Assembly (NCBI GenBank): GCA_017522795.1
Contig: JAFWXZ010000040.1
Coordinates: forward strand, 1-36,376
Direction: 5' to 3'
Source: Clostridia bacterium
GTDB lineage: Bacteria; Bacillota; Clostridia; Oscillospirales; CAG-272
DNA length: 36,376 bases
A program made the position numbers and the translations under genes. The notes beneath the pieces were generated by a model, which saw nothing but the letters and a program-made list of their open reading frames with translations, made no database searches and was not told the origin of the DNA. How positions within the stretch are numbered: the stretch's first letter is position 1; each line of letters opens with the position of its first letter. Shown piece by piece: positions 4,760 through 19,461 of this stretch.

Positions 4760-4828
4760 GAAAGCTTTTTTTAGTCTTTTCTATTTGTTTTTCAAGTAGA
4801 TTTCAGCTCGGTATTATTCTAATGTATT

Positions 4829-6073
4829 CTAATGCGATAGCACGAATTCCTTTACTCTCTTATGCAGGCACATCCAGATCATAGGCGCAAAGCAGATCAC
4901 CGCGCCCACCGAGAAGATGATATAAAGAGGGAACATGTCGCCGAGCAGTCCATATATCACTGCCGACAGCGCCGAGCCGCCTACCGATGCCGCCTGGAAA
5001 AAGCCGAGAATTCCGCTTCGGTTTTCCTCGGGCAGAGCAAGCATCAGCGATGCGTTGAACACAGTATTGCCCGCGGTGTTCAGTAAGGATGAAAGGAACG
5101 CTAGCACGCAGGTGAGAATGAAATTTTCGGAAATATACGCCGCTACAAGCGTTATCTCGGATAGAATAAAGCCGCCTGCCATAATGAAATATCTTGCCCT
5201 CGGGCTGAATTTTATCGCTCCCAGTAGCAAAACGCAGATAAGCGACCCTGCGGTCTGTATCGACATCAGATAGCCGTACATATCAACGGTAAATTCCTTC
5301 TCCATACAGAATGGAAGCATCAGCGTAAAGGGACCCGCCGCAAGAAGATTAATTATCAGCGCGCAGGGTACGAAGATTTTAAGACAGGGATCGGAGAATA
5401 TGCTTAAAATCGCATTTTTCATATCATGGAGAGTGCCCTTGACGGTGATCTTTGTACCCTGGCGGACGGTTTTCGGCACGCTTATCAGCATTTCGCTGAA
5501 TGCCGAGTACAGATTGCTGATGCCGTTTATTATCACGATAAGCGGCACGCCGAGGAGGGCTACCATCACTCCGCTAAGCGAATTGCCCACAAGGTTTATC
5601 ATCGAGCTGCCGCCCGAGACCAGAGATTGACCGCGAACCATATCGTCGCGGGGAATAATATCCAGCATTACTGTATTGAGCGCAGGAGAGTAGAACACAC
5701 CGCAAAACGCCGCAAGGAATGCCGCTACCAGCACTATAGGCACGCTGAGCCTTTCCACATAGGCGAGAACACCCACCGTCAGCATAATAACACCCTGAAA
5801 AAGATCTATCAGCACCAGCACCCACTTGCGATTCAGCTTATCCACGATGCTGCCGCTGAAGGGGGAGAGAAACATCGTGACGAACAGGGATATAGACGTC
5901 ATCACACCCATAAGGCTGTTGGAGCCTGTGGTCTGATATACCCAGAAGCCGATGGCAACGCTATACATAAGGTCGCCGATAAGGCTTACGCCGCCACCCT
6001 GCAGAAGTATAACGAAGTCCTTGTTCAGTAGTTTCTTTTTTTTATTGACCGTTGTTTGCTCAGTCATAAGCAT
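4829..6073 (-). CDS. MFS drug/macrolide-type efflux transporter
   Basis: This 414-residue polytopic protein has about twelve membrane segments and belongs to the major facilitator superfamily, in the MFS_3-like group that includes macrolide exporters. The N-terminal region contains LLQGGGVSLIGDLMYSVAI, and a signature-like loop SGSIVDKLNRKWVL (about 74-87) lies between helices 2 and 3. The ATG at 6073 follows GAGGAG by five bases; a second ATG two codons later is also possible. The gene is monocistronic, with its own promoter (6103-6132) and terminator. The substrate cannot be read from sequence. Confidence 0.85.
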   Translation of the reverse strand: MLMTEQTTVNKKKKLLNKDFVILLQGGGVSLIGDLMYSVAIGFWVYQTTGSNSLMGVMTSISLFVTMFLSPFSGSIVDKLNRKWVLVLIDLFQGVIMLTVGVLAYVERLSVPIVLVAAFLAAFCGVFYSPALNTVMLDIIPRDDMVRGQSLVSGGSSMINLVGNSLSGVMVALLGVPLIVIINGISNLYSAFSEMLISVPKTVRQGTKITVKGTLHDMKNAILSIFSDPCLKIFVPCALIINLLAAGPFTLMLPFCMEKEFTVDMYGYLMSIQTAGSLICVLLLGAIKFSPRARYFIMAGGFILSEITLVAAYISENFILTCVLAFLSSLLNTAGNTVFNASLMLALPEENRSGILGFFQAASVGGSALSAVIYGLLGDMFPLYIIFSVGAVICFAPMIWMCLHKRVKEFVLSH

Positions 6074-6102
6074 AAAAGCTCCTCTTTATGATTTATGATC
6101 TA

Positions 6103-6132
6103 ATTATATCATATCCTTCTGCCCTATGTCAA
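6103..6132 (-). promoter_or_regulatory. Promoter of the MFS gene
   Basis: TTGACA (6127-6132) and TATAAT (6103-6108) are spaced 18 bp apart on the minus strand. The sequence across the -35 box (6119-6137) matches the operator at 2800-2818 in 14 of 19 positions. Confidence 0.85.
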
Positions 6133-6161
6133 CATATTTTAGCTTTCAAATAGGAAAAATG

Positions 6162-6178
6162 TGCAACTGTCGGTTGCA
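6162..6178. terminator. Hairpin between helicase and MFS genes
   Basis: TGCAAC (6162-6167) and GTTGCA (6173-6178) form a stem. Both sides carry short T runs in the outgoing direction, so it may end the helicase transcript before the MFS promoter. Confidence 0.45.
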
Positions 6179-6219
6179 AATTTTTGTTTTTTGTGTATTT
6201 ATTTGTTTATTTTCCCTCT

Positions 6220-6438
6220 TCCGACCAGAACCGATCCAGCTCCTCGCGCAGAGCTCTTGCCGTGCCGATGAACTTGACTCCTTCCCATCAGCCTTCCCCA
6301 GCGAAGCGTGTTGGGGAAGGGGGACCGCCTTGGGCGGTGGATGAGGTTGCTCTGGGAACTATTTATTATCTCCATCCGACCAGAACCGATCCAGCTCCTC
6401 GCGCAGAGCTCTTGCCGTGCCGATGAACTTGACTCCTT
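6220..6438. repeat. 64-bp direct repeat flanking an inserted palindromic element
   Basis: Positions 6220-6283 and 6375-6438 are identical over 64 bp and encode the helicase C-terminus (…GTARALREELDRFWS…). Between them lie 91 bp that contain an interspersed repeat (6288-6346) with CCTTCCCC/GGGGAAGG and ACCGCC/GGCGGT hairpins and GGATGAGG at the edge. A member of the same family lies at 33955-34004. The distal copy would give the ending FWSEEGK, and the present gene ends FWSDGDNK. Confidence 0.85.
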
Positions 6439-8755
6439 TCCAGAGCTTCGGCAGGCTCTTTCGGTAGAGGGGATCGTCAAAGCGGTCGTCTATCAGCACG
6501 ATAACGCCGCGGTCGTCCTCTCGCCTGATCACTCTGCCCGCCGCCTGAAAGACTCTGTTCATTCCCGGGTAAATGTAGGCGTACTGCTTGCCCTCCTCGT
6601 ACTTGTCCTGGTAGTAGGCGGCGATCGCCTCTCGCTCGTAGGAGAGGGCAGGCATACCGATGCCCACGATAACCGCGCCGATCAGCTCCTCACCCGCCAG
6701 GTCAATGCCCTCGGAGTAGATTCCGCCCATCACGCAGAATGCTATCAGATAATTGCCGTCCTCTTTTTTGAACTCCTCGAGGAACTGCGCCTTTTCCTCT
6801 CTCGTCATATCGGGACGCTGGGAGATCACGCGGATCTTGGGATACTTCGCGCGAAAGACCTTACACAGCGCCTCGGAGTAGGCGAAGGAGGGGGAGAATA
6901 CCATATAGTTGCCTCGCCTTGCCGAAACGGTGGCAGCCACAGCCTGACAGACCGCCATAAGCGTGTCCTCGCGCTCGGAGTATCGGGTGCTAATCCTGTC
7001 CATAATGCAGACCGAAAGCTGTGAGGGATCAAAGGGCGAGTTTACCTCAAGGATGTCATCCGACCTGTCACCGCCGAGAATAGAGCGGTAGTAAGGCAGG
7101 GGAGACAGGGTTGCCGAGAAGAGCAGCGCGCCGTGTCCCTTGTTAAGTCCAGCTCGGATCGCGGGAGAGGTGTCAAGGCAGAAGATCTTTGCCCGAATTT
7201 CGCCACCGTCGTAGAACAGAAACAGCTTGTATGCCGAGTCAAAGCGGGAGAGCCCGTCGGCAAATTTCTTCATTTTATAATAGAACGCGCGCAGGTAGGA
7301 AAGCCTCTGCTCGCTCTCGTCGTCGCTTGCCCGCTGATTTATGAAGATCTCATCCTCTAAAACCCGCATCAGCTCGTCAAAGAGGGTGAAAAGCCTGGTC
7401 GGTATCTCAGAGAGGGTTGCCGCGCCGATCATTTTGCCACTCTTGTCTGCCCGAAGCTCGTCCTTGAGATAGGGCATAAGTGTGTCGGACATCACCGCGG
7501 CGGCGGTAGAGCAAAGCTTTTTCGTCGCGGAGAGCGCACCGAGTAGCTCCTCCTCGGCAGGCGCGTAAAGCTCTGAGAGAGAGATCTCTGCCGAGTACAT
7601 CTCACGGGCGCGCTCGCTAAGATTGTGTGCCTCGTCGATAAGAAAGGCGTATTTGCCCCCCTTGGTAAAGAAGCGCTTGATATAGACCACGGGGTCAAAC
7701 AGGTAATTGAAGTCGCAGATCACCACGTCGCAAAGCTCGGCGTAGGTGAGCGACAGCTCGTAGGGGCAGACGGTGTACTCGTTGGCAACAGCCCGCAGCT
7801 CCGCCATACCAACCACGGTTTTGTTAAGATTTGAGAGTGCCAGCGCCGCCTCGGCAATTCTGTTGCAGGCAGAGCGAGGGCACATTTTCTTTGATTTTTT
7901 ACAGATGCTGCGCTCGAGGCAGATCTTCTCCTTTGCGGTAAGGATCACCGCGCGGATGATCGCGCCACCCTTTGCCATAAGCTCAAGGCAGTCGCGCGCC
8001 GCCTCTGCCGTGGTGGTCTTTGGGGTAAGGTAGAACACCTTTTCCACCCGTCCGTCACCGAGAGCGCGGAGAGCGGGGTAGAGGGCAGAAACCGTCTTTC
8101 CCGTGCCTGTGGGCGCCGTGGCGTAAAGACAGCCGCCGCGGGAGAGGGTGCGGTAGGCGGATCTTACAAACTCGCTCTGCCCCTCGCGCACCTTGCCGTA
8201 GGGGAACTTCATAATCTTCATTGAGGGCAGTCGCTCGGTCACCCTCTGTATCTCGGGAGAGGCGAATATCCTAACCGCCACAAGACACTTGTTAAAGAAG
8301 CTCTCAAGCTTTCTTTTGCTGACCACCTCGGTCTTTTCGGCAAGCTCGCCGCTTGCCTCGCAGAGATATATAAAGCGGATGCTTACGGGATCAAAGCCCC
8401 TCTCTCGCGCCAGCATATAGGCGGCAATATAGCCCTCACCGCGAATCTCGGCGATCTCGCTTTTCTTCGGACGTCGGGGATTTGACTCAACGCCCCTTGC
8501 AATAGTGATCTCGCCGCCCGAGATGCCGTCGATAGTAGCCGAAAGCTCAAAGCTGTACTGTCCGTCAATAAATCGGTAGCAAAGCCGCTCCTCCGTCATC
8601 TCGCCAATAAGACCGAGCAGGCGGCGACGGCTTACCGCGCTGATATTCGGCTCGTCCTCGTCGTAGGAGACGGAGGGAGAGATGCCCCGCCTTGCAATGC
8701 TGACAAACTCGCCGAGAGTTATTCTGATCAGTTGATTATCCGCGTCGTATCTCAT
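6359..8755 (-). CDS. DinG/XPD-type superfamily 2 DNA helicase
   Basis: This 798-residue protein has an N-terminal region of about 180 residues that resembles a PD-(D/E)XK-type fold but shows no clear catalytic E-x-K. The helicase core follows. Walker A APTGTGKT is at 214-221, with a cysteine cluster C279, C285, C292, C297 and C330 typical of an XPD-like iron-sulphur domain. DEAH is at 374-377, a motif SATLSPLPYY is present, and a motif VI-like QAAGRVIRREDDRG lies near the end. It is expected to unwind DNA 5'-3' in repair. I start at 8755 because AAAGGAGG lies six bases upstream; the open frame extends further into the promoter. The 3' end has been rewritten by a repeat insertion. Confidence 0.88.
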   Translation of the reverse strand: MRYDADNQLIRITLGEFVSIARRGISPSVSYDEDEPNISAVSRRRLLGLIGEMTEERLCYRFIDGQYSFELSATIDGISGGEITIARGVESNPRRPKKSEIAEIRGEGYIAAYMLARERGFDPVSIRFIYLCEASGELAEKTEVVSKRKLESFFNKCLVAVRIFASPEIQRVTERLPSMKIMKFPYGKVREGQSEFVRSAYRTLSRGGCLYATAPTGTGKTVSALYPALRALGDGRVEKVFYLTPKTTTAEAARDCLELMAKGGAIIRAVILTAKEKICLERSICKKSKKMCPRSACNRIAEAALALSNLNKTVVGMAELRAVANEYTVCPYELSLTYAELCDVVICDFNYLFDPVVYIKRFFTKGGKYAFLIDEAHNLSERAREMYSAEISLSELYAPAEEELLGALSATKKLCSTAAAVMSDTLMPYLKDELRADKSGKMIGAATLSEIPTRLFTLFDELMRVLEDEIFINQRASDDESEQRLSYLRAFYYKMKKFADGLSRFDSAYKLFLFYDGGEIRAKIFCLDTSPAIRAGLNKGHGALLFSATLSPLPYYRSILGGDRSDDILEVNSPFDPSQLSVCIMDRISTRYSEREDTLMAVCQAVAATVSARRGNYMVFSPSFAYSEALCKVFRAKYPKIRVISQRPDMTREEKAQFLEEFKKEDGNYLIAFCVMGGIYSEGIDLAGEELIGAVIVGIGMPALSYEREAIAAYYQDKYEEGKQYAYIYPGMNRVFQAAGRVIRREDDRGVIVLIDDRFDDPLYRKSLPKLWKGVKFIGTARALREELDRFWSDGDNK

Positions 8756-8783
8756 ATGCCGCCTCCTTTCGTTTGATATAAAT

Positions 8784-8812
8784 ATTTTATCATATAATGG
8801 ACGTAAAGTCAA
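8784..8812 (-). promoter_or_regulatory. Promoter of the helicase gene
   Basis: TTGACT (8807-8812) and TAAAAT (8784-8789) are spaced 17 bp apart on the minus strand, right beside the terminator of the phage cassette. Confidence 0.8.
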
Positions 8813-8814
8813 GC

Positions 8815-8842
8815 AAAAAGAGGTGAGCAGAAGCCCACCTCT
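8815..8842 (-). terminator. Terminator of the phage cassette
   Basis: Read on the minus strand, AGAGGTG (8836-8842) pairs with CACCTCT (8819-8825) and is followed by five T. It closes the unit that begins near 15345. Confidence 0.82.
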
Positions 8843-8865
8843 CGTATAGCTTTAAGCCGATTGGC

Positions 8866-9060
8866 TTATTTTATTTCGGGCAACCCTGCCACGCTGGTCA
8901 GTAGTGACAGTATGACAGCCATCAGAGCCGCAGATACTACCGCCAGCCAATTTACCTCGCCCAGCATTACTGCCGTTCCAATGCCCGCTATGGCGGTCTG
9001 CGCTAAGGTTTTCACCGCCCGAACGCCTGCTGCCCGAAGCCATTTTTTGAAGCTTTCCAT
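8866..9060 (-). CDS. Phage holin, r1t-like
   Basis: This 64-residue protein has an N-terminal basic amphipathic stretch (SFKKWLRAAGVRAVKTLAQT) and two membrane segments (about 19-36 and 40-58), closing with LTSVAGLPEIK. This is the pattern of the r1t-type holins of Gram-positive phages, which open the membrane for endolysin. The ATG at 9060 has GGAGG five bases upstream; a GTG two codons earlier is not needed. It is the last gene of the cassette. No endolysin gene follows, which is unusual because holin and lysin are normally adjacent. Confidence 0.82.
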   Translation of the reverse strand: MESFKKWLRAAGVRAVKTLAQTAIAGIGTAVMLGEVNWLAVVSAALMAVILSLLTSVAGLPEIK

Positions 9061-9117
9061 ATTCACCTCCGTTTTTTTGAGAGGGACGGCTCCCTTTATC
9101 GGAACGCCGCCCCAAAT

Positions 9118-9411
9118 TTAAAGTCCGATCCTGGCGAGAATAAAGCCTATGGCAGCCGCCACAAGCAGAGTGATTATCTGGGTTATCAGCATCTCCCAAC
9201 GCTGCGCGGGCTTGCCTGTCAGCGACTTTACGTCGCCCTTGATCTCCTTTACGTCCGCTTCAACCTGTCTTTCGCGGACTGCAAGCACCTTTACCGTGCC
9301 TACAAGCTCGTCAAGGTTGTCCTGCCGCCTTTCCACCTCGTCTATGCGGTGTGAGTTGCTCTTGGCTCGCTCCTCCACCTCGGTAAGCCTTCTCTCGTGA
9401 TCAAGATCCAT
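9118..9411 (-). CDS. XhlA-like coiled-coil membrane protein
   Basis: This 97-residue protein has a long charged coiled coil (residues 1-65, with heptads such as LTEVEERAKSNSHRIDEVERR) and one C-terminal membrane helix (about 75-95). This resembles haemolysin XhlA of PBSX-type prophages, which acts with a holin in lysis. I choose the ATG at 9411 because AAGGAGG lies six bases upstream; the upstream TTG lacks one. The gene lies between the connector gene and the holin gene, consistent with a lysis accessory. It could also anchor particles to the membrane; that is speculation. Confidence 0.75.
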   Translation of the reverse strand: MDLDHERRLTEVEERAKSNSHRIDEVERRQDNLDELVGTVKVLAVRERQVEADVKEIKGDVKSLTGKPAQRWEMLITQIITLLVAAAIGFILARIGL

Positions 9412-9422
9412 AAGCTGCCTCC

Positions 9423-10265
9423 TTACGCCCAACCGTTCAGGTTCTCGTAGGCGGTGTCAATGACGGGGTAGCTGCCTCGCTCCAGCTTTTCGATAAGGCT
9501 GTCGTAGTGTGATTTGTAGTATTTTGCCAATGCCTCGTCGCCGTCAAGCAGCAGGTAGGACGCCACAAGCAGAGGAAAGAGATGCGTATACTCGTCGGGC
9601 ACGTCAAGCTTCTCGCCCAAGGCTCCGGTGGCAAGAGTAGGCAGACGGCGGTAGGTTATCACTATCTCGCCGTTGTACTCGGAGGTAAGCTCCGCAAGTC
9701 CGTCCCGCAGAGTACAGCCCTCGATCCTCTTACCCGAGCCGTCCTTGGCAGGGGAGAGGAAGGACATAAAGTCACCGTATAGCTCACGCACGCTGTAGGT
9801 AGTAGCTCCGCCCGGCTCGGGAATATCCTCGGGATTGTCCGAGAACATCTCCTCGTACACCGAAAAATCGTATATGCTAAAGGTGTACGTGCCGAAGAAG
9901 CGAAGGCTTGTGCCCACGGCGGCTATCGCCTTGAAGGTCTTTGTCTCGTTGCCCGTAGATATGTTGGTAAGCGTAGAATGACCGCCGGATATAGTCAGCA
10001 GCTGACAGCTGCCGTGGATCCTGAAGCTGTAGCAGTTTCCGCTTATCTCGATCTGAAAGGGACTGCCGTTTACACAGTTTATCTGTCTGTGATAGACGAT
10101 AGGCTTAACGCCCCTTGCAATCATTCTAACCGTCTTTGGGATAACTCTGTCGCTGTACAGCTCCATAAGGGCAAGGTTGGTGGAGCTTAACAGCGGGAGG
10201 CTTGCCGTATCAAGCTCGATAGAGCCAAGCAGGCTTACCTGCTTTATTAATTCTTCATAGGTCAT
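9423..10265 (-). CDS. Head-tail connector/adaptor-like protein with beta-rich insert
   Basis: This 280-residue protein is in the connector position downstream of the capsid gene. The N-terminus (MTYEELIKQVSLLGSIELDT) and C-terminus (DVPDEYTHLFPLLVASYLLL, ALAKYYKSHYDSLIEKL) look like the helical ends of phage adaptor proteins that bind the portal. Between about residues 50 and 140 lies a beta-rich part with QIEISGNCYSFRIHGSC and SLRFFGTYTFSIYDFSVYEE, similar in feel to carbohydrate-binding or fibre-like domains. The start follows GGGGAG by seven bases. The assignment rests mainly on position and end patterns; it could be a decorated neck or receptor-binding part. Confidence 0.6.
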   Translation of the reverse strand: MTYEELIKQVSLLGSIELDTASLPLLSSTNLALMELYSDRVIPKTVRMIARGVKPIVYHRQINCVNGSPFQIEISGNCYSFRIHGSCQLLTISGGHSTLTNISTGNETKTFKAIAAVGTSLRFFGTYTFSIYDFSVYEEMFSDNPEDIPEPGGATTYSVRELYGDFMSFLSPAKDGSGKRIEGCTLRDGLAELTSEYNGEIVITYRRLPTLATGALGEKLDVPDEYTHLFPLLVASYLLLDGDEALAKYYKSHYDSLIEKLERGSYPVIDTAYENLNGWA

Positions 10266-10292
10266 TTTGATCTCCCCGCCCCTTCTTCGCTA

Positions 10293-11360
10293 TTAGATCT
10301 GAATGTTCGCCGCCTTGGTGATCTCGGTGGCAGAGTCAACCGCAAGACAGATGTGCTTGTAGGTGCCAAAGCCTACGCCGAAGCGGCATCTGCCGTTCCA
10401 GATGTAGTTGCCGGTGTGGTTGTCCACCCAGTTGGTGACGGTGAGGGGAACGCGGTTGAAGAACATATTACCGCAGAGGTTCTTGTTCGCCTCGCTGGAC
10501 ATTACCATAAGGCGCATATCATCGGGCTGCCAGGAGGGAAGCACGATCACGTTCCAGTTGCCGTAGTGAAGGTTGATATCGTTGTAGCCGTTGCCGAGCG
10601 CGCCGTCAGAGCCGCACACCTTCTTTACTATTGCCTCGAGCTTGGGGTTGTTGCCGGGAATAATAACGGTGTCTGCGGTGTAGCCCAGCGGCTCGCCTCT
10701 CTCGTCTACCATGTTGCGTATCTTGCCTGCAAGGGCGTAGAGCGCCGCCTCAAAGGTCTCGGTGGTATACTCTCTTTCGCTGCCCGAGCCCTTGCCGAAG
10801 ATATCGCCCCAGAAGTAGTTGTCCTGAGTACCCTCCGCGGCTCCGTAGATGCCCCATACGTGACCCTTGGAGAAGAGGGGAAGACCCTCGGAGGTGGTGA
10901 GGTCGAGATTTGCGCCTGCATAGGTGGCGTTGGCTGTGGTCGCGCTGATAAGCGCCTTTTCACAGATCTTGTTGATGGTCTTGTAGTAGGCGCGGACAAA
11001 GTTCTCGGCTCTGTGCTTCGCATCTGCCGCCACACCGTAAAGGGCATCCTCCATCATCTCTGCGGTGATGGTAAATTCCTTGGTGAACTGAATATGCTCA
11101 ATGAACTTCTGGTAGGTGTTGACGATAGAGTCGGTTGCCGCGGTGTCACCCTCCTCGGTAGCTTGGAAAACGTCAAACTCGTTTCCGCCTACGATGGTCT
11201 CACCGAAACGATTGCTCTTTTCAACGTTGAAGAGCGCGTCGCAGATGCCACCCTTTTTGGTAAGCAGGTCGCTCTCGTGCTCTATTATCATTTTGATAGG
11301 GTTTTCAAGTCTGCCTATCGCGGCGTCGTTGTAGCCGCTGTTTTTAGAATAAACTATCAT
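10293..11360 (-). CDS. Phage major capsid protein (HK97-like)
   Basis: This 355-residue protein has the expected length, place and features of an HK97-fold capsid protein. It has an N-terminal arm, an E-loop-like region (FDVFQATEEGDTAATDS), a long helix rich in EMMEDALYG and RAENFVRAYYKTINKI, and a C-terminal part (IIPGNNPKLEAIVKKV, WNGRCRFGVGFGTYKHI). The start has AAGGAG eight bases upstream. The frame is intact with no internal stop. No protease gene is adjacent and no long cleavable delta domain is evident, so maturation may not need processing. Confidence 0.85.
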   Translation of the reverse strand: MIVYSKNSGYNDAAIGRLENPIKMIIEHESDLLTKKGGICDALFNVEKSNRFGETIVGGNEFDVFQATEEGDTAATDSIVNTYQKFIEHIQFTKEFTITAEMMEDALYGVAADAKHRAENFVRAYYKTINKICEKALISATTANATYAGANLDLTTSEGLPLFSKGHVWGIYGAAEGTQDNYFWGDIFGKGSGSEREYTTETFEAALYALAGKIRNMVDERGEPLGYTADTVIIPGNNPKLEAIVKKVCGSDGALGNGYNDINLHYGNWNVIVLPSWQPDDMRLMVMSSEANKNLCGNMFFNRVPLTVTNWVDNHTGNYIWNGRCRFGVGFGTYKHICLAVDSATEITKAANIQI

Positions 11361-11386
11361 TTTTTATCTCCTTGTTATTTAAAAAA

Positions 11387-11773
11387 TTATTTTGTCACTC
11401 TTTTGTAGAGTCTTTGGATCTCGGCGTCGCTGAGTCCGCCGAAAAGCTCACGCAGCTCGGTCATCTCGCTCTTGCTGAGCGCGCCGCGGGGTACTCTTGC
11501 TGCCCTCGGTACGCTGGATGTCAGATGTGAAAGACTCGCGTTTTTGTCTGTGTCAACCTCTGTCAGCGCAGTAGAATCGTCGCTCTGCTCCTCCGTCACC
11601 TCGCCTGTCGGGCATTCGTTCTGTACTGCTTCATAATTCTGAACTCTGCACTCTTCACTCTGCACTTTACTTTCCTCCCTTGGCTCTGAGGTCTCCGCCA
11701 ACGGTCTTTTTGCCGCAAGGCTCTTTAGTGCTTTTATTGGGTGCAGTAATCTTTTTAGTACTGAGGTCTGCAT
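11387..11773 (-). CDS. Small scaffold-position protein carrying a repeat insertion
   Basis: This open frame of 128 residues lies between portal and capsid, where scaffold genes usually sit. The C-terminal third (LSKSEMTELRELFGGLSDAEIQRLYKRVTK) is helical and scaffold-like. The middle (SKVQSEECRVQNYEAVQNEC) is a translation of the interspersed GTGCAGAGT-type repeat seen between host genes. The ATG at 11773 has no ribosome site. A different-frame ATG at 11798 has one and opens a 43-codon frame that stops at the repeat. The gene may therefore have lost or shifted its original 5' part. Confidence 0.5.
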   Translation of the reverse strand: MQTSVLKRLLHPIKALKSLAAKRPLAETSEPREESKVQSEECRVQNYEAVQNECPTGEVTEEQSDDSTALTEVDTDKNASLSHLTSSVPRAARVPRGALSKSEMTELRELFGGLSDAEIQRLYKRVTK

Positions 11774-11798
11774 ATACGCTTTTTTTCTTTTTCTTCAT
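11667..11798 (-). CDS. Short alternative-frame ORF after the portal gene
   Basis: Forty-three codons start at an ATG with AAAGGA about eight bases upstream and begin MKKKKKSVYADLSTKKI. The frame overlaps the 128-residue frame by 107 bases and ends with TAA at the edge of the inserted repeat. It could be the original start of the scaffold-position gene, now in another frame, or a small basic phage protein. Only one of the two frames is likely to be the true N-terminus. Confidence 0.35.
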   Translation of the reverse strand: MKKKKKSVYADLSTKKITAPNKSTKEPCGKKTVGGDLRAKGGK

Positions 11799-11820
11799 TT
11801 TTTGTTCCTTTCTTTTTTCT

Positions 11821-13584
11821 TTATGACTCCGCGCCGCCTGTGACGGTGGGGGTAATATCTGCCGCAGGAGGTTCTTCTACGTTGACTAATCCTGCTGCGC
11901 CGCGGTTGATTATGTCCTGGAAATACTCCACGTTTTCTCTCGCGTAGGGGAAGCGCGCCTTGTCCTGCAGCTGCCAGTAGCGCATAAGGGTATAGGGGCT
12001 CTCCCTGTCGCCGAGAGTTCCGCGCTCAAGGTTGGTAAGGTTTATCTCCCACAGCGTCTCGCTCTGATACTGATCGTCGGCGTTTACGTCAACGGTGAAG
12101 AGGTAGGAGTCGTCGTAGTAGTAATTTCCCCGTCTGTCGCACTCGATAAAATCGTAGCGGTTGAACTCGGTGAAGTGCATTCTGCCGAAGGTGTCGCGGT
12201 AGGCAAATCTTCTCGGCTCGTCGGCGAAGGCAAGATAGTGCTTGAATATCAGCTCGTATATCTTGCAGTAGGCAAGGTGCTTCATACGCTTCTTGGTCTC
12301 AAGGCGGCTGGAGGCGCGTGAGATCTTCAGCTGTCTTGCATAGCCCGACTCGCTTGTGGCGGCGTCAAGTCCCTGCAGCGCGTCGGAAATACCCAGCACG
12401 CGCTTTGCCTGATCGTAGAGGCGGTCTGCCTCCTCCACGTCCTGTTTTATGTCGGGGGTGGTGTCGATAGTGCCGTAGCTTGCCATAGACTCGCCCGGGC
12501 GTGTCTTTATCACCTGTCCGAATACGGTGTTGTTAAGCGATACCGCCGTGCCCTCGGGCATTACGGGGGTCACTCCTGCGCGGAGCAGCTTCTGAAGTAT
12601 TCTTGACTCCACCTTGTTTATCGCCTGCTGCTGTGGGCGTATCCTCTCGCAGTCCGATCCGCCGAGAAGAAGTCCGTCACCGATGGTGTTCTTCCTTACG
12701 ACTATGGGGAAGTCACGGGGAACGTAGTAGGGTATAGTAGCCTCGCTACCGTCAGGCAATCTGACCTTCTCGCTATTCCCGTCAATATAGTAGGGATCGG
12801 GCAGGGCGCAATCACAGCTCTGAAGCTGACGTCCGCACTCGCGGCAGACGGCGGTCTTTCGCTTGTAGTAGCCCTCGATATCCGAGAGGACAAGCTCGCC
12901 CGAAAAGACGAATTTACCCACCTGACCCTGCCCGTCTCTGTAAAACGCCAGGATGACAGCCACCGCGTCGCCCATAGGATCGTCAAGGTCGGCAAGGTAT
13001 TCGCACTCGGCAAGGGCAAGCTCCTCCTCTGCCACCCCGTATTTGCTCATAAGCTCGGCGCGGGTGGTGGTGAAGTGAAGGAAGCAGTATTCCATATCCT
13101 CCACCGACTCTATGGAAGGCTGGGGAATGAAGTCCATAGGAGAGAGCAGATGCACTCTCACGCCGCCCTCGCCTGCGTTGTCGGTCTGGTTGCTGTCCCA
13201 CTCAACGTAGAACACGCTGCCGCCGTAAATATAGGTGTATCGCTCGTCGCGGTCGTTCAGCTCCTCGAAGGGAAGCCTGGATCTGACAGCCGAGGAGAGC
13301 CTCTCGATAGCCCTTGCGTTCTGTTCTCTCTCGGCGCTGTAGCAGCTGGTGTCCACCTTAGGCACGGGAATATCGGCGTTTATCTCGCTCTCGATAAGCT
13401 CGTAGGTGATGTTTCTCACCACGCCTGCCCGCTCGGGTGAGCCGTCGATCGAATCGCTGCCGAGATACTGCTCCATATGCTGAGATAACCTCTCTCGGTT
13501 TCCCTCGGCGGCGAGGACGGCGGAGGAGTAAAGCTCCTTTAACCTCTCAAATCTGGCCTTGGTTTCTTTAGTTAATTCTTTCAA
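11821..13584 (-). CDS. Phage portal protein
   Basis: This 587-residue portal protein forms the ring through which DNA is packaged, and it lies directly after terL as usual. Its N-terminus is helical and charged. A central stretch RPQQQAINKVESRILQKLL and the region RVLGISDALQG...SESGYARQLKISRAS are typical of portals. An unusual feature is a four-cysteine knuckle (C247, C250, C257 and C259: CRECGRQLQSCDC) that looks like a small zinc ribbon. The start codon is TTG, overlapping the terL stop as TTGA, with GGAG seven bases upstream, so translation is coupled. The frame is intact. Confidence 0.85.
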   Translation of the reverse strand: MKELTKETKARFERLKELYSSAVLAAEGNRERLSQHMEQYLGSDSIDGSPERAGVVRNITYELIESEINADIPVPKVDTSCYSAEREQNARAIERLSSAVRSRLPFEELNDRDERYTYIYGGSVFYVEWDSNQTDNAGEGGVRVHLLSPMDFIPQPSIESVEDMEYCFLHFTTTRAELMSKYGVAEEELALAECEYLADLDDPMGDAVAVILAFYRDGQGQVGKFVFSGELVLSDIEGYYKRKTAVCRECGRQLQSCDCALPDPYYIDGNSEKVRLPDGSEATIPYYVPRDFPIVVRKNTIGDGLLLGGSDCERIRPQQQAINKVESRILQKLLRAGVTPVMPEGTAVSLNNTVFGQVIKTRPGESMASYGTIDTTPDIKQDVEEADRLYDQAKRVLGISDALQGLDAATSESGYARQLKISRASSRLETKKRMKHLAYCKIYELIFKHYLAFADEPRRFAYRDTFGRMHFTEFNRYDFIECDRRGNYYYDDSYLFTVDVNADDQYQSETLWEINLTNLERGTLGDRESPYTLMRYWQLQDKARFPYARENVEYFQDIINRGAAGLVNVEEPPAADITPTVTGGAES

Positions 13585-14942
13585 TTTGGTTCTCCATATT
13601 TATTTTTCAGGTATTTTTTTCCCGAGTCGTCTGCCGCAAGGTAGTCCTCCCACATATCCTTTGTCCACCTGCACCTGACTGCTCCCTTTTCCTCGGCGGG
13701 ACGGCTGTAATAGATGGCAAAGCCACGCAGCGCGTCGGGCGCGTGGGTTATATCGTGGGGCTCGGTGGAGCAGTCGGTTGGGCGGATCTTATCAACCGTC
13801 AGGGCGGGCAGGCACTTGATAAGCTCGGTGCAGGATGAGAATATCCGCAGCCTCTGCCGCCCCTCGCCGCCTATGAGCAGCTCCTTTATGGCAAGCCAGC
13901 CGCACTCGCGGTCGTTTGAGGTCTTGGTGAAGCTTACGCCATACTCCGAGAACAGCACCGCCTTGCTCTTTCCCGTCTCCTGACTTCTGTTCCACAGATC
14001 GGGAGGGGCGAGGGTGGCGTAGATGTCCTCCGTGGGCGGTGTTCTCTCGCAAATCCCTACGGCAGCCTGGCTGATTGTAAGGTTTGATTTACAAAATTCA
14101 CGGTAAACGTAGCAAACACCGTCGGGGGACACCGCTATCCACAGACAAGCGAGACGGTCAAGACCGTAGTCCACGGTTCTGTATTTTCGCCAGCTCCGCG
14201 GTATTTCAAAGGGAGATACTACGTGCTTTTTTTGGTCAAATTCGTCAAAGTATTGCCCCTCAAAGATGTTCCAATCGCCGTAAAGCAGAGCCTTTTTTTC
14301 TCTCTCGGGCAGGGCGAGCAGCCTGTCGCGGTAGTGGGGATCACCCTCGGCTAAAAATCTGTTGTCGTCAAGCAGGGCGGGGATAAATATCCTTGTCATC
14401 CCGTCCCCGCCGTCAAAGCTTTCGCCCTGGGGAGAGGGATCTACGAACCTCGCCTTTACCCAGCTGTGTCCCACACCGCCCGGGTTGGTGGAGGACTTTA
14501 TCTGCTTTGGTATATTGCCCGTGCCTCTGACTCGGGATATAAGGTAGAGGTATTGGCTCTCGGTAAAGTGGGTAAGCTCGTCGAAGCGGATAACGTCGTA
14601 TTCTGCGCTCTGATATTGATATACGTCGGCCTCGGCGGCGCAGTAGCCGAAGTCGATTATCGATCCGTTCTTGAACCTACCCGTATGGCTTGAGGAATTG
14701 AAGGTATAGATCTCCCTCGGATATAGCGCCAGGGTGGTGCGGATAAGCGATTTGTCAAGCTCGGAGAAGGTGCGCCTCAGTATCAGCTGCTTTGAGGCGG
14801 GGTACCTCAGGGCAAAAAGCAGTGCGTCCACCGCCTGTCCGTAGGATTTTCCACCACCCGCCGCGCCGCCGAACAGCACCTCGCTTTCGGTCGCGTCAAT
14901 AAACGCCTTTTGCTTTTTCGTCACGGTAAGGTCTATATTCAT
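13581..14942 (-). CDS. Phage terminase large subunit
   Basis: This 453-residue packaging motor has both functional halves. The ATPase has Walker A GGAAGGGKS at 25-33, Walker B DVIRFDE at 116-122 and a coupling-type SSTNPGG near 150-156. The RNase H-like nuclease has RTVDYGLD (D258) and the closing THAPDALRG aspartate. It would cut and pump DNA into procapsids. The ATG overlaps the terS stop as ATGA, and the 3' end overlaps the portal start. All catalytic residues that can be checked by eye are present, which argues against simple decay. Confidence 0.92.
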   Translation of the reverse strand: MNIDLTVTKKQKAFIDATESEVLFGGAAGGGKSYGQAVDALLFALRYPASKQLILRRTFSELDKSLIRTTLALYPREIYTFNSSSHTGRFKNGSIIDFGYCAAEADVYQYQSAEYDVIRFDELTHFTESQYLYLISRVRGTGNIPKQIKSSTNPGGVGHSWVKARFVDPSPQGESFDGGDGMTRIFIPALLDDNRFLAEGDPHYRDRLLALPEREKKALLYGDWNIFEGQYFDEFDQKKHVVSPFEIPRSWRKYRTVDYGLDRLACLWIAVSPDGVCYVYREFCKSNLTISQAAVGICERTPPTEDIYATLAPPDLWNRSQETGKSKAVLFSEYGVSFTKTSNDRECGWLAIKELLIGGEGRQRLRIFSSCTELIKCLPALTVDKIRPTDCSTEPHDITHAPDALRGFAIYYSRPAEEKGAVRCRWTKDMWEDYLAADDSGKKYLKNKYGEPN

Positions 14943-15277
14943 TCCTTGACCTCCAGTCTGAAGGTAAGGTCGTTTATATCCTCCCTTGCATCCTGCTCAT
15001 CAGAGAGTGTGAGCAGGAATTTGGTGAAGCTGCCGTCAAATCGCTTGGTAAGCGCGCCGTCTATGAGAATATCTCTCCTTATCGCTTCGCATTCGCGGTA
15101 GGCTCGGTCGAACTCTCTGCGCCCCCTGAATCTCTCCAGGTCGGCAAGAGTAAGCCCCGCGCCCCTTGCAAATTTCACGAAGCTTGGCACACCCGCCTCG
15201 GCATACTCGGTAAAGTAGCGGTATAGCCGTCTTGGTAGATCCGAGGTGTATTTCACTCGACTTTTCTTTTCCTTCAT
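14939..15277 (-). CDS. Terminase small subunit-like protein
   Basis: This 112-residue protein is in the small-terminase position, immediately before and overlapping terL. It is helical and charged. The segment VPSFVKFARGAGLTLADLERFRG (about 30-52) resembles a helix-turn-helix, and the segment RRDILIDGALTKRFDGSFTKFLL (about 69-91) resembles the oligomerisation part of small terminases that load the large subunit. AAAGGA lies eight bases before the ATG. It is the first gene of the cassette, behind the promoter at 15352-15380. Confidence 0.75.
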   Translation of the reverse strand: MKEKKSRVKYTSDLPRRLYRYFTEYAEAGVPSFVKFARGAGLTLADLERFRGRREFDRAYRECEAIRRDILIDGALTKRFDGSFTKFLLTLSDEQDAREDINDLTFRLEVKE

Positions 15278-15313
15278 TCGTCAGTCCTTTGCTTGTGTTT
15301 TCGTCGGATTTCG

Positions 15314-15412
15314 GTCCGGCTTCCGGACGCCCACCTCCATCTGACAAGTCGATTATACAACATTTTTTCGATCTTGTAAGTATACCACCCTCCCAAAGTT
15401 TGGGGGGTATAC
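15314..15412 (-). promoter_or_regulatory. Promoter, operator-like palindrome and leader hairpin of the phage cassette
   Basis: On the minus strand TATAAT (15352-15357) is preceded by CTTACA or TTACAA (15374-15380) at 16-17 bp. Directly upstream is an inverted repeat with arms GTATACC (15380-15386) and GGTATAC (15406-15412). Downstream, in the leader, is a hairpin GTCCGG-CTT-CCGGAC (15314-15328). The cassette therefore appears to have its own regulated start. Confidence 0.55.
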
Positions 15413-15485
15413 ACCCCTCGAAATTTGTGTAGTTTGCACAAAAAAACACCCCTTTCAACCGATCTCGGCGAAAAAGATGTCACTA

Positions 15486-15551
15486 ATTGACATTTGTCAA
15501 TAAACTTTTTTTAGTAGCTTTCTTGACAGCAATGTCTGCATATGATATTAT
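15486..15551 (+). promoter_or_regulatory. Promoter and palindrome for the paired membrane proteins
   Basis: TTGACA (15523-15528) and TATTAT (15546-15551) are 17 bp apart. A perfect 16-bp inverted repeat ATTGACA-TT-TGTCAAT lies at 15486-15501, 21 bp upstream of the -35 box, and could bind a regulator. Confidence 0.75.
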
Positions 15552-15574
15552 TAAAGCAAAAAGGAGAAAACACT

Positions 15575-15976
15575 ATGAAACGCGGAACACCTTCACTTGT
15601 GGTTTATATCCTCTACACCCTGCTTGGCGCGGGAACGGTCATCTACAACCTTATAGCCGCAGAGAAGCATAATGCCAACGGCGGCGGCTGGGAAGGAATA
15701 GGAATTGCACTGCTTATGGTGCTTGGAATAATTCTCGGCGCGGCAGGCCTCGTTGGCGTGATCTTAAAGCTCATTCATATGGGCACGGGCTGGGGCTTCT
15801 TCGGATTCCTTTGTATCCTTCTTGATATCGGCTTTATTTTCGCCTTTATCAGCATAGCTCTCCCTGGCGGAAACAATATTTCTATCGCAACCCTTGAGGA
15901 TTTTCTTCCGTCCATACCCTTTATTGCCGCCTCGGTCCTCTCCCTTATCTCAAACGCGGTATCTCTTAAAAAATAA
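15575..15976 (+). CDS. Four-helix membrane protein, paralogue A
   Basis: This unrecognised 133-residue protein has four membrane segments (about 7-27, 41-66, 71-95 and 108-128). I start at 15575, where AAGGAG is eight bases upstream; an earlier ATG lies inside the -10 box. It shares with the next gene a motif K-L-[IV]-H-x2-[ST]-G-W-x3-G-[FL]-L-C-[IV]-L (here KLIHMGTGWGFFGFLCIL) and a common ending SL.xNA[VI]S. The two genes therefore arose by duplication. They are separated by 12 bp and share the promoter at 15523-15551. Confidence 0.7.
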   Translation: MKRGTPSLVVYILYTLLGAGTVIYNLIAAEKHNANGGGWEGIGIALLMVLGIILGAAGLVGVILKLIHMGTGWGFFGFLCILLDIGFIFAFISIALPGGNNISIATLEDFLPSIPFIAASVLSLISNAVSLKK

Positions 15977-15988
15977 AGAGGAAAAAGT

Positions 15989-16384
15989 ATGAGAAAATTC
16001 GGTATAATCTCGTTATTGAACTATCTTTTGTATCTGGTCGGCGGAATTGTGATTACCCAGGCGCTGTCGGGCTTTACGGATGAGCAGGTCTATGATAACA
16101 TCGCCGCAGGTATTTTTTCGATGTTAGCTATCTTTTTGATCCTATTCGGCATTGTCGCCACGGCTTTAAAGCTCGTTCATCTGTGCAGCGGATGGACTAT
16201 CGTCGGATTGCTTTGCGTTCTGATCGATATTTTCGCGCTTGTAATATGGATCAATATCGAGTTTTTCTTCGCCGATTCCGCCCTCTCCGCAGGAGTGGAG
16301 ATCGGAAAGATCATCACCCTCTTTATTCCCGCGGTGGCATCCTTTATATCGCTTGCTTGCAACGCCATCTCTATAAGAAGATAA
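15989..16384 (+). CDS. Four-helix membrane protein, paralogue B
   Basis: This 131-residue paralogue of the preceding gene has the same four-helix layout and the shared motif KLVHLCSGWTIVGLLCVL near residues 61-78. Its loop after the first helix is acidic (GFTDEQVYDN), unlike the glycine-rich loop of its partner, so the pair may form a heteromer; this is inference. GAGG lies seven to ten bases before the ATG. A strong bidirectional terminator follows. The function is unknown. Confidence 0.7.
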   Translation: MRKFGIISLLNYLLYLVGGIVITQALSGFTDEQVYDNIAAGIFSMLAIFLILFGIVATALKLVHLCSGWTIVGLLCVLIDIFALVIWINIEFFFADSALSAGVEIGKIITLFIPAVASFISLACNAISIRR

Positions 16385-16410
16385 CTTTTTATAATAGCCA
16401 AAGGGCGCAA

Positions 16411-16440
16411 AAAAATCGGCAACGAAAGTTGCCGATTTTT
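16411..16440. terminator. Bidirectional terminator between the membrane pair and udk
   Basis: A 13-bp perfect stem (AAAAATCGGCAAC / GTTGCCGATTTTT) with a GAAA loop serves both converging units. Confidence 0.93.
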
Positions 16441-16443
16441 ATT

Positions 16444-17058
16444 TTATTTCAAATGTTTTTCAATCTGATCCACGATCATCTGGCAGGCAACCGCGTTCTC
16501 GCCGCCGACGGGGACGATAATGTCGGCGTATCTTTTACTCGGCTCTACGAATGCCTCGTGCATAGGCTTTACCGTGCTGAGATACTGCCCGATAACAGAA
16601 TCAAGGCTTCTGCCTCTCTCCTTAACGTCACGGAGAATACGGCGTAGAATACGCACGTCGGCGTCGGTGTCAACGTATATCTTCATATCAAGCCTGTCCC
16701 TAAGCTCCGGATTTTCAAGGATAAGAATACCCTCAAGCACCACAACCTTGTTGGCCTTTACCTCTCTCACCTCTGCGGCTCGCGTGTGGCGGGAGTAATC
16801 GTAGGTGGGCGAGAGAATATCCCGTCCCGCCTTCAGCTCGTCAATATGGTAGATAAGCAGATTTGTGTCAAAGGCGTGGGGATGGTCGTAGTTCGTCTTT
16901 ACGCGCTCCTCCATAGGAATATCGTCCTGACACTTGTAGTAGTCGTCGTGACGAAGCACGCTGATGCGGTTAGCGAAATGCTCTAAAATATTAGCCGCCA
17001 GAGTGGTCTTGCCGCTGCCTGAGCCGCCGGCAATTCCTATTATGAGCACGTCTTTCAT
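16444..17058 (-). CDS. udk: Uridine/cytidine kinase
   Basis: The enzyme phosphorylates uridine and cytidine to UMP and CMP. This 204-residue protein has the P-loop GGSGSGKT (about 11-18) and the family motifs HDDYYK (near 39-44), YDHPHAFD (near 58-65), PTYDYSRHTR and VVLEGIL. GAGGG lies about seven bases upstream of the ATG. It is the last gene of the nucleoside-salvage operon, 18 bp after udp, and a terminator follows within four bases of its stop. With Udp next to it, the cell can either degrade uridine or phosphorylate it. Confidence 0.94.
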   Translation of the reverse strand: MKDVLIIGIAGGSGSGKTTLAANILEHFANRISVLRHDDYYKCQDDIPMEERVKTNYDHPHAFDTNLLIYHIDELKAGRDILSPTYDYSRHTRAAEVREVKANKVVVLEGILILENPELRDRLDMKIYVDTDADVRILRRILRDVKERGRSLDSVIGQYLSTVKPMHEAFVEPSKRYADIIVPVGGENAVACQMIVDQIEKHLK

Positions 17059-17076
17059 ATCTAATCCCTCTTTTTC

Positions 17077-17847
17077 TTACTTTTTCTCTAAATCCTTTGC
17101 AATCAGGCGCTTCATCGCCTCGATGCCTACCTTGATCGCTCCCGAGGTGTCCTCGATCATAGGCATATTCATACCCGCCTTCTCTATCTCCTGGTTCCAG
17201 ATAACGTGGAAGCAGCTGCCACAGCGAACCTTAAGAGCCGATGCCACAACGAACAGGGCGGCAGACTCCATCTCGCTCGCCTTTACGCCAAGGCGCTTCC
17301 AGCTCTCCCATTTATTAAGCAGCTCGTAGTATACGGGCGACTTCTCGGGCGAGTGCTGACCGTAGAAAGAGTCCTTGCACTGTACGACACCCGTGTGGGT
17401 GCGGTAGCCAAGCTCCTCGCTGGCGGATTTCAGCGCGGCCGCAACGTCAAAGTCGGGAACGGCAGGGAACTCGATGGGCGCATATTCCATAGACGTATGC
17501 TCAAAGCGGATAGCACCCGTGGCAACCACCACGTCACCCGGCTGTACCTCGAGGTCAATGCCGCCGCAGGTACCGATACGGATAAAGGTGTCCGCACCGA
17601 TGGCAGAGAGCTCCTCCATAGCGATAGAGGCGGAGGGGCCGCCAATACCCGTAGAGCAGACCGAGACCTTCTGTCCCAGCAGTGTGCCTGTGTAAATGTT
17701 GTATTCTCTGTTCATTCCGATATGAACGGGATTATCAAAATGCTTTGCAATTTCCTCGCATCTTCCGGGGTCCCCGGGGAGAAATACGTAGCGACCTACG
17801 TCCCCCTCGTTGCATCTGATGTGAAACTGTGTTCCTATATCCTGCAT
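17077..17847 (-). CDS. udp: Uridine phosphorylase-like nucleoside phosphorylase
   Basis: This is a member of the PNP/UDP phosphorylase family (256 residues from the chosen ATG). It converts uridine and phosphate to uracil and ribose 1-phosphate. Motifs include [16 protein letters not shown] near 21-36, [24 protein letters not shown] and the ribose-binding [10 protein letters not shown]. The segment [14 protein letters not shown] fits uridine rather than purine phosphorylases. I chose the ATG at 17847, which has AAAAGGA eight bases upstream; a TTG eleven codons earlier overlaps cdd and lacks one. It follows cdd by 13 bp in the operon. Confidence 0.88.
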
Positions 17848-17860
17848 ATTATTTTCCTTT

Positions 17861-18274
17861 TTACAAATTATTCTTGTCAAAGCCCGAGGGAAGTATCTCC
17901 GAGAGCTTTTTTACCGTCCATCTTTCGCCATTACCCCAGATAACGAGGAAATCTGCCGAGCAGAACTCTGCCATCACCTGTCTGCATACGCCGCAGGGAG
18001 GGAAGTCGGCCTTGGAGGGCTTGCCCGCCTCACCGCCTGCAATAGCGATGGCGAGGAACTCTCGCTCCCCCTCGGACACTGCCTTGAATATGGCTGTCCT
18101 CTCGGCGCAGATGGTGGGGGTGTAGGACGCGTTTTCAATATTCGTGCCGCGGTAGACCTTGCCCGACCTTGTCAGAAGAGCCGCGCCTACCGAAATGTGT
18201 GAATAGGGCGAATAGGACGAGCCTCTCGCCTCCTCTGCCATATTAAGCAGAGCGGCAATGTTTACTTGACTCAT
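17861..18274 (-). CDS. cdd: Cytidine deaminase
   Basis: The enzyme deaminates cytidine and deoxycytidine to uridine and deoxyuridine, feeding the adjacent udp and udk products. The 137-residue length fits the tetrameric Gram-positive form. The zinc site has C56-A-E58 (CAERTA) and P93-C94-G-V-C97-R-Q, with E58 as the proton shuttle. Its ATG overlaps the deoB stop by four bases, so the two are coupled. The C-terminus (PSGFDKNNL) carries no extra domain. Confidence 0.95.
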
Positions 18275-19440
18275 ACTACTTCTCCTTTGAGAGAGGGCGC
18301 GTCACCTGCGCTGAAGTCGACACCGAGCAGCTCTGCCGCCGTGTTGCCAATAGTAGCAAAGCCGAGTCTTGTGCCAAGGTTCACCTTTTTGATATTCTCG
18401 CCAATGATAATAAGCGGAACCTGCTCTCTTGTGTGGTCGGTGCTCACGTCACCCGGGTCACAGCCGTGGTCGGCGGTGATCATCAGCACGTCGCCCTCAG
18501 CCATACCCTTAATAAACTCGGGCAGCCAAGCGTCAAAGGCGGTAAGCGCCGCCGCATAGCCGTCAATATCCTGTCTGTGACCGTAGAGCATATCGAAGTC
18601 TACAAGGTTTGCAAAGCACAGACCGTTAAAGTCGGTTTTCTGTACCTCAAGCAGCGTCTGCATACCCTCTTTGTTGTTGTGGGTGGGCAGGCTTTCCTTT
18701 ATCCCCGCGCCCGAGAAGATGTCGTATATCTTTCCGATAGAAATTACGTCAAGTCCGCTCTCACCGATAGCGTCCATAGCGGTTTTCGCAGGGGGTGTCA
18801 GCGAGTAATCGTGGCGGTTCTCGGTGCGCTTGTACGCGCCCTCACTGCCGATAAAGGGGCGGGCGATAACTCGTCCCACCGCGTGCTCACCCTGTAATAT
18901 CTCGCGGGCAATGCGGCAGTATTCGTAAAGCTGCTCTACGGGAACGTGGTCCTCGTGGGCCGCGATCTGAAAAACGCTGTCAGCCGAGGTGTAGACGATA
19001 AGGTCGCCCGTGTCACAGTGCGCCTTTCCGTAGTCGCGGATAACGTCGGTGCCGGAGTAGGGCAGATTGCAGAGCACGCCTCTGCCTGTGCGGCGGCTGA
19101 ACTCGTCAAGCACCTCAGCGGGAAAGCCCTCAGGGTAGGTGGGCATAGGCTTTTCGGACACAATACCCATCATCTCCCAGTGTCCCGTGGTGGTGTCCTT
19201 GCCGCGACTAAGCTCGCGCAGTCTTGCAACCGCAGCCCCCGGGGTGTCGGTGGTGGGCAGATAGTCCACGCCGTCAATGTTGCCAAGTCCCAGCGAAAGC
19301 AGGGTAGGGATATTAAATTTATTCGAAGCGGAAATACGCTTCATTGTGTTCGCTCCGTAGTCGCCGAAATCAGCCGCATCAGGCGCGTATCCGATTCCAA
19401 CCGAGTCAAGAACGATTATGAAAACTCTTTTTATATCCAT
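18271..19440 (-). CDS. deoB: Phosphopentomutase
   Basis: The enzyme interconverts ribose 1-phosphate with ribose 5-phosphate, and the deoxyribose pair likewise, linking the phosphorylases to DeoC and central metabolism. The 389-residue alkaline-phosphatase-fold protein is of standard length. Metal-site motifs include VLDSVGIGYAPDA near the start and MITADHGCDP near residues 325-335. The phospho-accepting threonine lies in KDTTTGHWE (81-89). It is coupled to cdd by an ATGA overlap. Upstream, a heptamer repeat array separates it from deoD. Confidence 0.96.
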   Translation of the reverse strand: MDIKRVFIIVLDSVGIGYAPDAADFGDYGANTMKRISASNKFNIPTLLSLGLGNIDGVDYLPTTDTPGAAVARLRELSRGKDTTTGHWEMMGIVSEKPMPTYPEGFPAEVLDEFSRRTGRGVLCNLPYSGTDVIRDYGKAHCDTGDLIVYTSADSVFQIAAHEDHVPVEQLYEYCRIAREILQGEHAVGRVIARPFIGSEGAYKRTENRHDYSLTPPAKTAMDAIGESGLDVISIGKIYDIFSGAGIKESLPTHNNKEGMQTLLEVQKTDFNGLCFANLVDFDMLYGHRQDIDGYAAALTAFDAWLPEFIKGMAEGDVLMITADHGCDPGDVSTDHTREQVPLIIIGENIKKVNLGTRLGFATIGNTAAELLGVDFSAGDAPSLKGEVV

Positions 19441-19461
19441 TTCGTTATTCCTTGTTAGTTA

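Follow-up and report, generated by a model that had tools for sequence, protein, structure and literature searches.

What is a set of phage head genes doing in a bacterial chromosome without a tail? The question is raised by a compact cassette of packaging, capsid and holin genes in a Clostridia bacterium (Oscillospirales, CAG-272; assembly GCA_017522795.1), of which positions 1 to 36,376 of contig JAFWXZ010000040.1 were analysed (36,376 nucleotides, hereafter the window; the genome is a single metagenome-assembled genome, MAG, 78% complete). A first-pass annotation had proposed that the cassette is either retained to make tailless, DNA-filled heads in the style of a gene transfer agent (GTA) or is a satellite relying on a helper, with a young prophage deletion as the plain alternative. 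Comparison with relatives argued against a prophage remnant private to this genome: the cassette belongs to a cluster spread across its genus, a group of uncultured gut Clostridia mostly from ruminants. The cluster is probably a domesticated structural cluster of podovirus type, inherited mostly vertically and performing a GTA-like job, and the window carries a copy of it that has no tail nozzle.

All eight annotated open reading frames (ORFs) of the cassette were found on the minus strand of the window, each of them open, and the Pfam and PHROGs searches agreed with the head-packaging-holin content described earlier, giving no match to tail, endolysin, integrase or replication families among the eight. 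Gene families were obtained by clustering the window together with 60 loci of the genus, among which five are second elements (61 sequences in total), and the clustering was repeated on 58 named loci plus 11 IMG/VR loci. The genes are as follows, the 43-codon one being an addition to the earlier eight:

14939..15277, minus strand: TerS, small terminase (PHROG 3064 at 6e-5, a weak match)
13581..14942, minus strand: TerL, large terminase (PHROG 979 at 1e-50; Pfam Terminase_3 and Terminase_6N)
11821..13584, minus strand: portal (PHROG 156 at 6e-23; Pfam SU10_portal below cut-off)
11667..11798, minus strand: basic protein of 43 codons (family F3, at this place in 47 of the 61 sequences)
11387..11773, minus strand: putative scaffold-like small protein (family F4, 47 of 61 sequences; C terminus conserved, start uncertain)
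10293..11360, minus strand: major capsid protein with a predicted HK97 fold (weak library match at 1e-4; structure model)
9423..10265, minus strand: putative head-tail connector, named from its position (family present in 45 of the 61 sequences; in relatives it follows the capsid and precedes the nozzle)
9118..9411, minus strand: XhlA-like membrane protein (PHROG 937 at 3e-15; ORF to 9432, ATG at 9411)
8866..9060, minus strand: r1t-type holin (Pfam PF16945 at 6e-13; alternative GTG start at 9066)

The coordinates bear out the reported four-base overlaps between TerS and TerL and between TerL and the portal, and TerL still has FGGAAGGGKS and VIRFDE, which we take to be the catalytic motifs that had been described as intact. 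The TerS family comprised 56 of the 61 sequences, prophage-type copies counted. Neither the small protein at 11387-11773 nor the connector had any match in Pfam or PHROGs, the former being presumably scaffold-like from its place in the order. Searches of PDB sequences with the capsid profile and the portal produced nothing useful, and the capsid label is backed by the HK97 fold of the model.

Of the 148 genomes searched, 107 had a TerL relative; within the genus this was true of 58 of the 70 genomes (the window's own counted), G043 and G049 having a distant type as their sole TerL. The capsid profile matched 58 of the 70 as well, among them 19 of the 22 with at least 90% completeness and at most 5% contamination. 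The genes usually run TerS, TerL, portal, F12, a protein of 45 residues, the scaffold-like protein, F11, capsid, connector, nozzle, at least one further gene, F10 and the membrane proteins tmCC, tm13 and tm14, with one or other gene missing from some loci; the XhlA-like protein of the window falls outside this set. The order was uniform across the loci read except for the permuted G005:C14 (L091, L146, L341), which runs from the 45-residue gene to tm14 and then through TerS, TerL and portal, an arrangement that a circular intermediate or a tandem duplication might have produced. Relatives keep the order of the head genes, but not the tail-less form for which the earlier annotation had suggested a search.

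Seven of the 12 capsid-negative genomes of the genus have rows in the rpoB tree, where G028, G067 and G049 form one clade and G023 and G043 stand separately, a pattern consistent with losses, the root of the tree being uncertain. G017 and G068, with no capsid match but with the cassette TerL, are probably merely incomplete. Across the order, the capsid profile matched 31 of 394 genomes, five of them from this genus, and other genera carried compact clusters with a related TerL and with nozzle, connector or capsid recognised by profile. Other families of the order also have compact clusters in which terminase, portal, capsid or nozzle genes are related (L121-L138, L314-L333); in L127, ten genes are flanked by host-looking genes. 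Several IMG/VR viral contigs (L031-L034, L197-L207) bear the cassette and may be pieces of host chromosome taken for viruses.

Judged by its structure model, the gene that follows the connector in relatives is a podovirus tail nozzle. The best PDB matches of a representative model (L154:11914-14598, 894 residues, 41 sequences, mean predicted local distance difference test score, pLDDT, of 88) were portal-tail or nozzle chains of podoviruses, with cyanophage A4 at E 2e-18 and a template modelling (TM) score of 0.42, and further matches to LME-1, Carin 1, T7, SU10 and P22. At residues about 230-320 it contains a BspA-type leucine-rich insert, which is present in most relatives. Among the 46 genus loci testable for the nozzle, i.e., those with more than 4 kb beyond the capsid gene (window counted), 45 possess it and the window is the sole exception, and therefore the head-only state is derived by loss. 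The nozzles of the three nearest relatives measure 437, 561 and 572 residues versus a median of 886 and have no leucine-rich insert, and F12 and F11 genes were called neither in them nor in the window; on these grounds, the tail side has been pared stepwise in the window's group. The window is also the exception for tm14, present in 17 of the 18 loci with both capsid and the downstream helicase gene DinG. Elsewhere in the window's own genome, incomplete as it is, the nozzle profile gave 23 matches, all of them within leucine-rich profile positions 179-348, and tm14 gave no match. The gap between the connector and DinG is occupied by the XhlA-like gene and the r1t-type holin, and the window is homologous to the relatives again from about 8823, immediately ahead of DinG. 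XhlA relatives occur in only three of the 70 genus genomes (own counted): one, 58% identical, lies in a phage-like region of G001, and another, 33% identical, stands at the end of the G009 cluster after a small membrane-protein-like gene; the holin had no clear match in either locus.

The site of the cluster was compared by way of DinG, based on 32 TerL places from the 58 TerL-positive genus genomes, reduced to 31 by G058, which has no DinG entry. In 22 of these 31 genomes (own counted), DinG lies downstream on the same strand at 4.8-17.9 kb from TerL, the window having the shortest distance. Upstream flanks are shared by subclade, with nucleoside genes in the window's group and an ABC-transporter group in another; the nucleoside genes beyond the uridine kinase are common to the window and its nearest relatives. 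The two flanking genes of the window are:

6359..8812, minus strand: DinG/Rad3-type helicase (below curated cut-offs), the downstream anchor common to relatives
16444..17058, minus strand: uridine kinase, upstream flank

The TerL and rpoB trees of 43 species (excluding G043, G049, copies of the prophage type and any TerL no longer than 380 residues) shared 17 of 40 splits, compared to a mean of 0.2 and a maximum of 3 after shuffling, while the capsid and rpoB trees shared 12 of 35 (shuffled maximum 2). Pairwise distances correlated with those of rpoB for TerL (r = 0.78), portal (0.70), connector (0.56) and nozzle (0.62). The ratio of nonsynonymous to synonymous substitution rates (dN/dS) of the cluster genes in 11 pairs was mostly 0.03-0.35, several pairs being little informative owing to saturated or large dS, and the highest values with unsaturated dS were 0.57 and 0.50 (F10), 0.47 (TerS) and 0.42 (scaffold-like protein). 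For the head genes of the window it was 0.09-0.32 against three close relatives with unsaturated dS. These values are far from 1, unlike the neutral dN/dS that the first-pass annotation had named as refuting, and a decayed prophage was ruled out at the genus level because of the congruence with rpoB together with the low dN/dS. No full prophage was seen at the same site in the 18 loci with capsid and DinG, compared by gene families, with the flank ORFs not scanned against Pfam. Retention in the style of a GTA consequently finds support for the genus in gene order, descent, purifying selection and sites, but the tail-less design does not, being a loss specific to the window; equally, the young prophage deletion does not hold as a private remnant, whereas a deletion on the tail side within an old domesticated cluster is possible.

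Flanking att repeats, which the earlier annotation had suggested looking for, were not found: a direct-repeat search of 4800-20400 gave nothing att-like, the pairs that span the cassette being short, weak (69-78% over 18-26 nt) and located within genes, and no tRNA genes were present in the window. The features of a temperate prophage were likewise not detected, with no integrase or replication family matched among the eight ORFs and no att-like repeats. At the 3' end of DinG (window 6220-6442), a 68-bp stretch is repeated at a spacing of 155 bp with 99% identity, corresponding to an extra DinG fragment. Farther away, an ORF at 32950-33918, in a stretch of low GC, matches IscB-like proteins in part (1e-13) and, weakly and at its end, a topoisomerase, and an ORF at 29199-30002 resembles APH(3') phosphotransferases below curated cut-offs.

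Temperate relatives of the cluster exist within the genus. G011 carries, besides its cassette, a separate prophage (G011:C6) whose structural genes keep the same order all the way from TerS through tm14, but which, unlike the cluster, has a tyrosine integrase adjoining host-looking genes, an S24 repressor, a DNA methylase and, between an F12-like gene and the scaffold, a protein of 2,429 residues that contains LPD38 and LPD3 domains. Similar elements were found in G036 and G058, the latter partly called. In both the capsid and the portal tree, a branch with a Shimodaira-Hasegawa-like approximate likelihood ratio test (SH-aLRT) value of 100 has all three prophage copies on the same side, which would be consistent with one domestication. 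Among ten proteins scanned from the clusters of relatives (flank ORFs not included), there was no integrase or replication protein.

The cassette also has signals of its own:

15375..15397, minus strand: conserved upstream element and -35 of the promoter, TTTGGGAGGGTGGTATACTTACA, upstream of TerS, exact at the cassette
15352..15357, minus strand: -10 element TATAAT, 17 nt from CTTACA (from the scan; conserved in relatives)
8818..8843, minus strand: terminator-like hairpin of 11 pairs (from the scan)

Of the private promoter with palindrome previously placed at 15352-15412, the promoter was recovered both by the scan (CTTACA-17-TATAAT, 15380-15352) and in relatives, and the terminator placed at 8815-8842 was likewise found as the hairpin at 8843-8818. 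The palindrome was rejected as a conserved feature, since the 14-mer taken for it occurred in only one of 50 TerS upstream regions, while the neighbouring element is conserved. The scan gave 8 promoter-like sites versus 4.0 in shuffles and 10 terminator-like sites versus 7.6. The pattern TTTGG, CTTAC, TANNNT at near-fixed spacing was present in 23 of 51 TerS upstream regions of the genus and in none of 50 Markov resamplings, and genus loci totalling 923,703 bases contained it 24 times, 23 of them at a called TerS and the last one (L073, position 2420) preceding a TerS match. Within its own genome, the 23-base element was found at three sites with at most three mismatches (reversed control 0): at the cassette (exact), at C24:4227-4249 (L343, exact) and at C15:4614-4636 (L345, one mismatch). 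The latter two each precede a small gene among host-looking genes, and the two products, 47% identical, matched PHROG DnaD-like helicase loaders at 6e-42 and 3e-32 but no Pfam family. The shared element suggests, from the promoters of this one genome, a possible three-part regulon coupling packaging to a phage-type replication factor. No DnaD-like relatives were found in the other genus loci fetched; a viral contig had one and L318, from another family, had a second, both without the promoter motif, and the element had no exact match in the viral contig collection.

Among the open-licence PubMed Central (PMC) papers listed by the searches, no earlier description of the cluster was found, nor was there a second paper using the term FpGTA. 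According to Borodovich et al. (2026; PMC12946183), FpGTA is a 10.5 kb Faecalibacterium operon with TerS, TerL, portal, scaffold and capsid, while fibre, holin and endolysin genes lie in a second operon; FpGTA was present in all twelve Faecalibacterium genomes examined, was called podovirus-like and forms heads of about 40 nm that contain about 9 kb of DNA and show no visible tail. Compared by description, the present cluster resembles FpGTA I/II in its compact TerS-TerL-portal-scaffold-capsid set (scaffold by position) without replication genes. It differs in genus, in having nozzle and membrane genes in the same cluster of most relatives (absent in the window) and in that no endolysin, which FpGTA is described as having, was found in the proteins scanned. 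The L127-type clusters of other genera resemble FpGTA I by description alone. RcGTA form siphovirus-like particles, unlike the genus cluster with its nozzle of podovirus type.

The resemblance to RcGTA-type and other classified GTAs, as characterised in the definition given by PMC9662315, lies in endogenised, co-diversifying structural genes of phage origin. That definition names structural proteins derived from caudoviricetes, encapsidation of mostly random host DNA, full endogenisation (often at several loci), a cluster too large to be packaged whole, mostly vertical inheritance with co-diversification, and delivery of the packaged DNA to other cells. Three of these six features were found: the structural proteins are caudoviricete-derived, the shared host flanks indicate endogenisation (with the DnaD-like loci as possible extra loci), and the TerL and capsid splits shared with rpoB indicate vertical inheritance, although the capsid failed the distance test. 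The cluster is best read as functioning like a GTA rather than as an established GTA, least of all in the nozzle-less copy of the window, for which DNA delivery to other cells is doubtful. The capsid fold is nearest to SU10 (Foldseek) and, like the nozzle fold, links the cluster to SU10 and the T7/P22-type podoviruses, yet identity to these free viruses is about 6-14% among the matches listed. BaGTA, in the description given by PMC6899734, pairs with a phage-derived module for run-off replication; the DnaD-like genes could be a comparable replication partner, linked here by the shared promoter element alone.

Several observations weigh against a domesticated, GTA-like cluster. Particles, packaging and transfer are predictions from the genes, and the window cassette comes from the one incomplete MAG. 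The capsid gene was not found in three of the 22 near-complete genus genomes, DinG lay on another contig in 8 of the 31 genomes and about 79 kb off in G005, and capsid distances were uncorrelated with those of rpoB (r = -0.12). The TerL tree does not put the three prophages on one side: the branch of G036b is very long, and G011b pairs with G058b. TerS retains a helix-turn-helix-like stretch (by eye), and no endolysin was found among the eight window ORFs and the ten proteins scanned from relatives. Finally, TerS, TerL, portal and capsid together accumulated 179 synonymous and 87 nonsynonymous changes on the window lineage versus 186 and 56 on its sister, an excess of nonsynonymous change (Fisher p 0.018 with outgroup G039 and 0.001 with G052; one sister and two outgroups were used), whereas the DinG control gave no difference between the lineages. 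This fits a modestly relaxed, not neutral, selection on the window lineage and is consistent with recent loss or a changed role.

The most serious competitor, with somewhat less than an even chance, is that the GTA-like element works in the genus while the window holds a head-only remnant, its tail recently deleted, the rest decaying and the XhlA-holin pair left over from another prophage and joined by the deletion. This would account for the nozzle missing from the window alone, the shortened nozzles of its three nearest relatives, the raised nonsynonymous share and the likeness of XhlA to the one in the phage-like region of G001. However, the head genes are open and constrained as measured against three close relatives, promoter and terminator are still in place, and the distant G009 likewise has an XhlA-like gene at its cluster end. 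A particle for killing or binding rather than DNA transfer, as with PBSX, consisting of heads or nozzle-bearing, is unlikely. Delivery is indeed only predicted, the FpGTA authors leave the question open (PMC12946183), and the leucine-rich insert in most relatives' nozzles is of a surface type; but the terminase genes have been kept under selection, which argues for DNA packaging. It is rather improbable that the window represents a nozzle-less GTA in which selected tailless heads would fill with the cell's own DNA and be released by the XhlA-holin pair in place of the old release genes, the two promoter-coupled orphan DnaD-like loaders over-replicating host DNA in the manner of BaGTA and the heads protecting or donating DNA without injection. 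An assembly chimera, in which the species would in reality have the nozzle side and the join to XhlA and holin would be an artefact, is very improbable: the evidence comes from a single MAG contig and a second assembly of the species was not seen, but the contig runs on into DinG with homology to relatives restored at about 8823, so that two false joins would be needed, and neither the nozzle nor tm14 was found elsewhere in the 78% complete genome. Phage satellites possess an integrase and use the capsid genes of a helper, whereas the cassette has its own TerL, portal and capsid and no integrase match, so the satellite proposed at first found no support; an ordinary prophage or satellite mobile through a helper, for which the related temperate prophages of the genus might speak, is hardly credible in view of the lack of integrase matches and att-like repeats, the rpoB congruence and the common flanks.

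The favoured history, which is fairly probable, would begin with a podovirus-type structural cluster domesticated, probably once, in the ancestry of the genus and thereafter inherited mostly vertically at shared chromosomal sites. In its full form the cluster encodes terminase, portal, a scaffold-like protein, an HK97-type capsid, the connector, a short nozzle and membrane proteins; the integrase, the repressor and the large internal protein found in the prophage relative are missing. TerL would pack host DNA into heads, the nozzle would close them and the membrane proteins would aid release; packaging, release and transfer are inferred, whereas gene content, conservation, descent, selection, nozzle loss and the conserved promoter were observed. 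In the window species, the nozzle and later genes are gone and a phage-type XhlA-holin pair has taken their place, the likely product being nozzle-less heads or a system losing its function.

After FpGTA, the genus would provide another case of such wide spread: 58 species whose cluster has a congruent phylogeny and a conserved promoter, together with a related prophage in the same genus. The graded series of tail loss offers a test of how a phage turns into a tool of its host and whether a tail-less head stays useful. Particle-mediated transfer may be common in ruminant-gut Clostridia. Since such cassettes sit among IMG/VR viral contigs, they may be miscounted as viruses.

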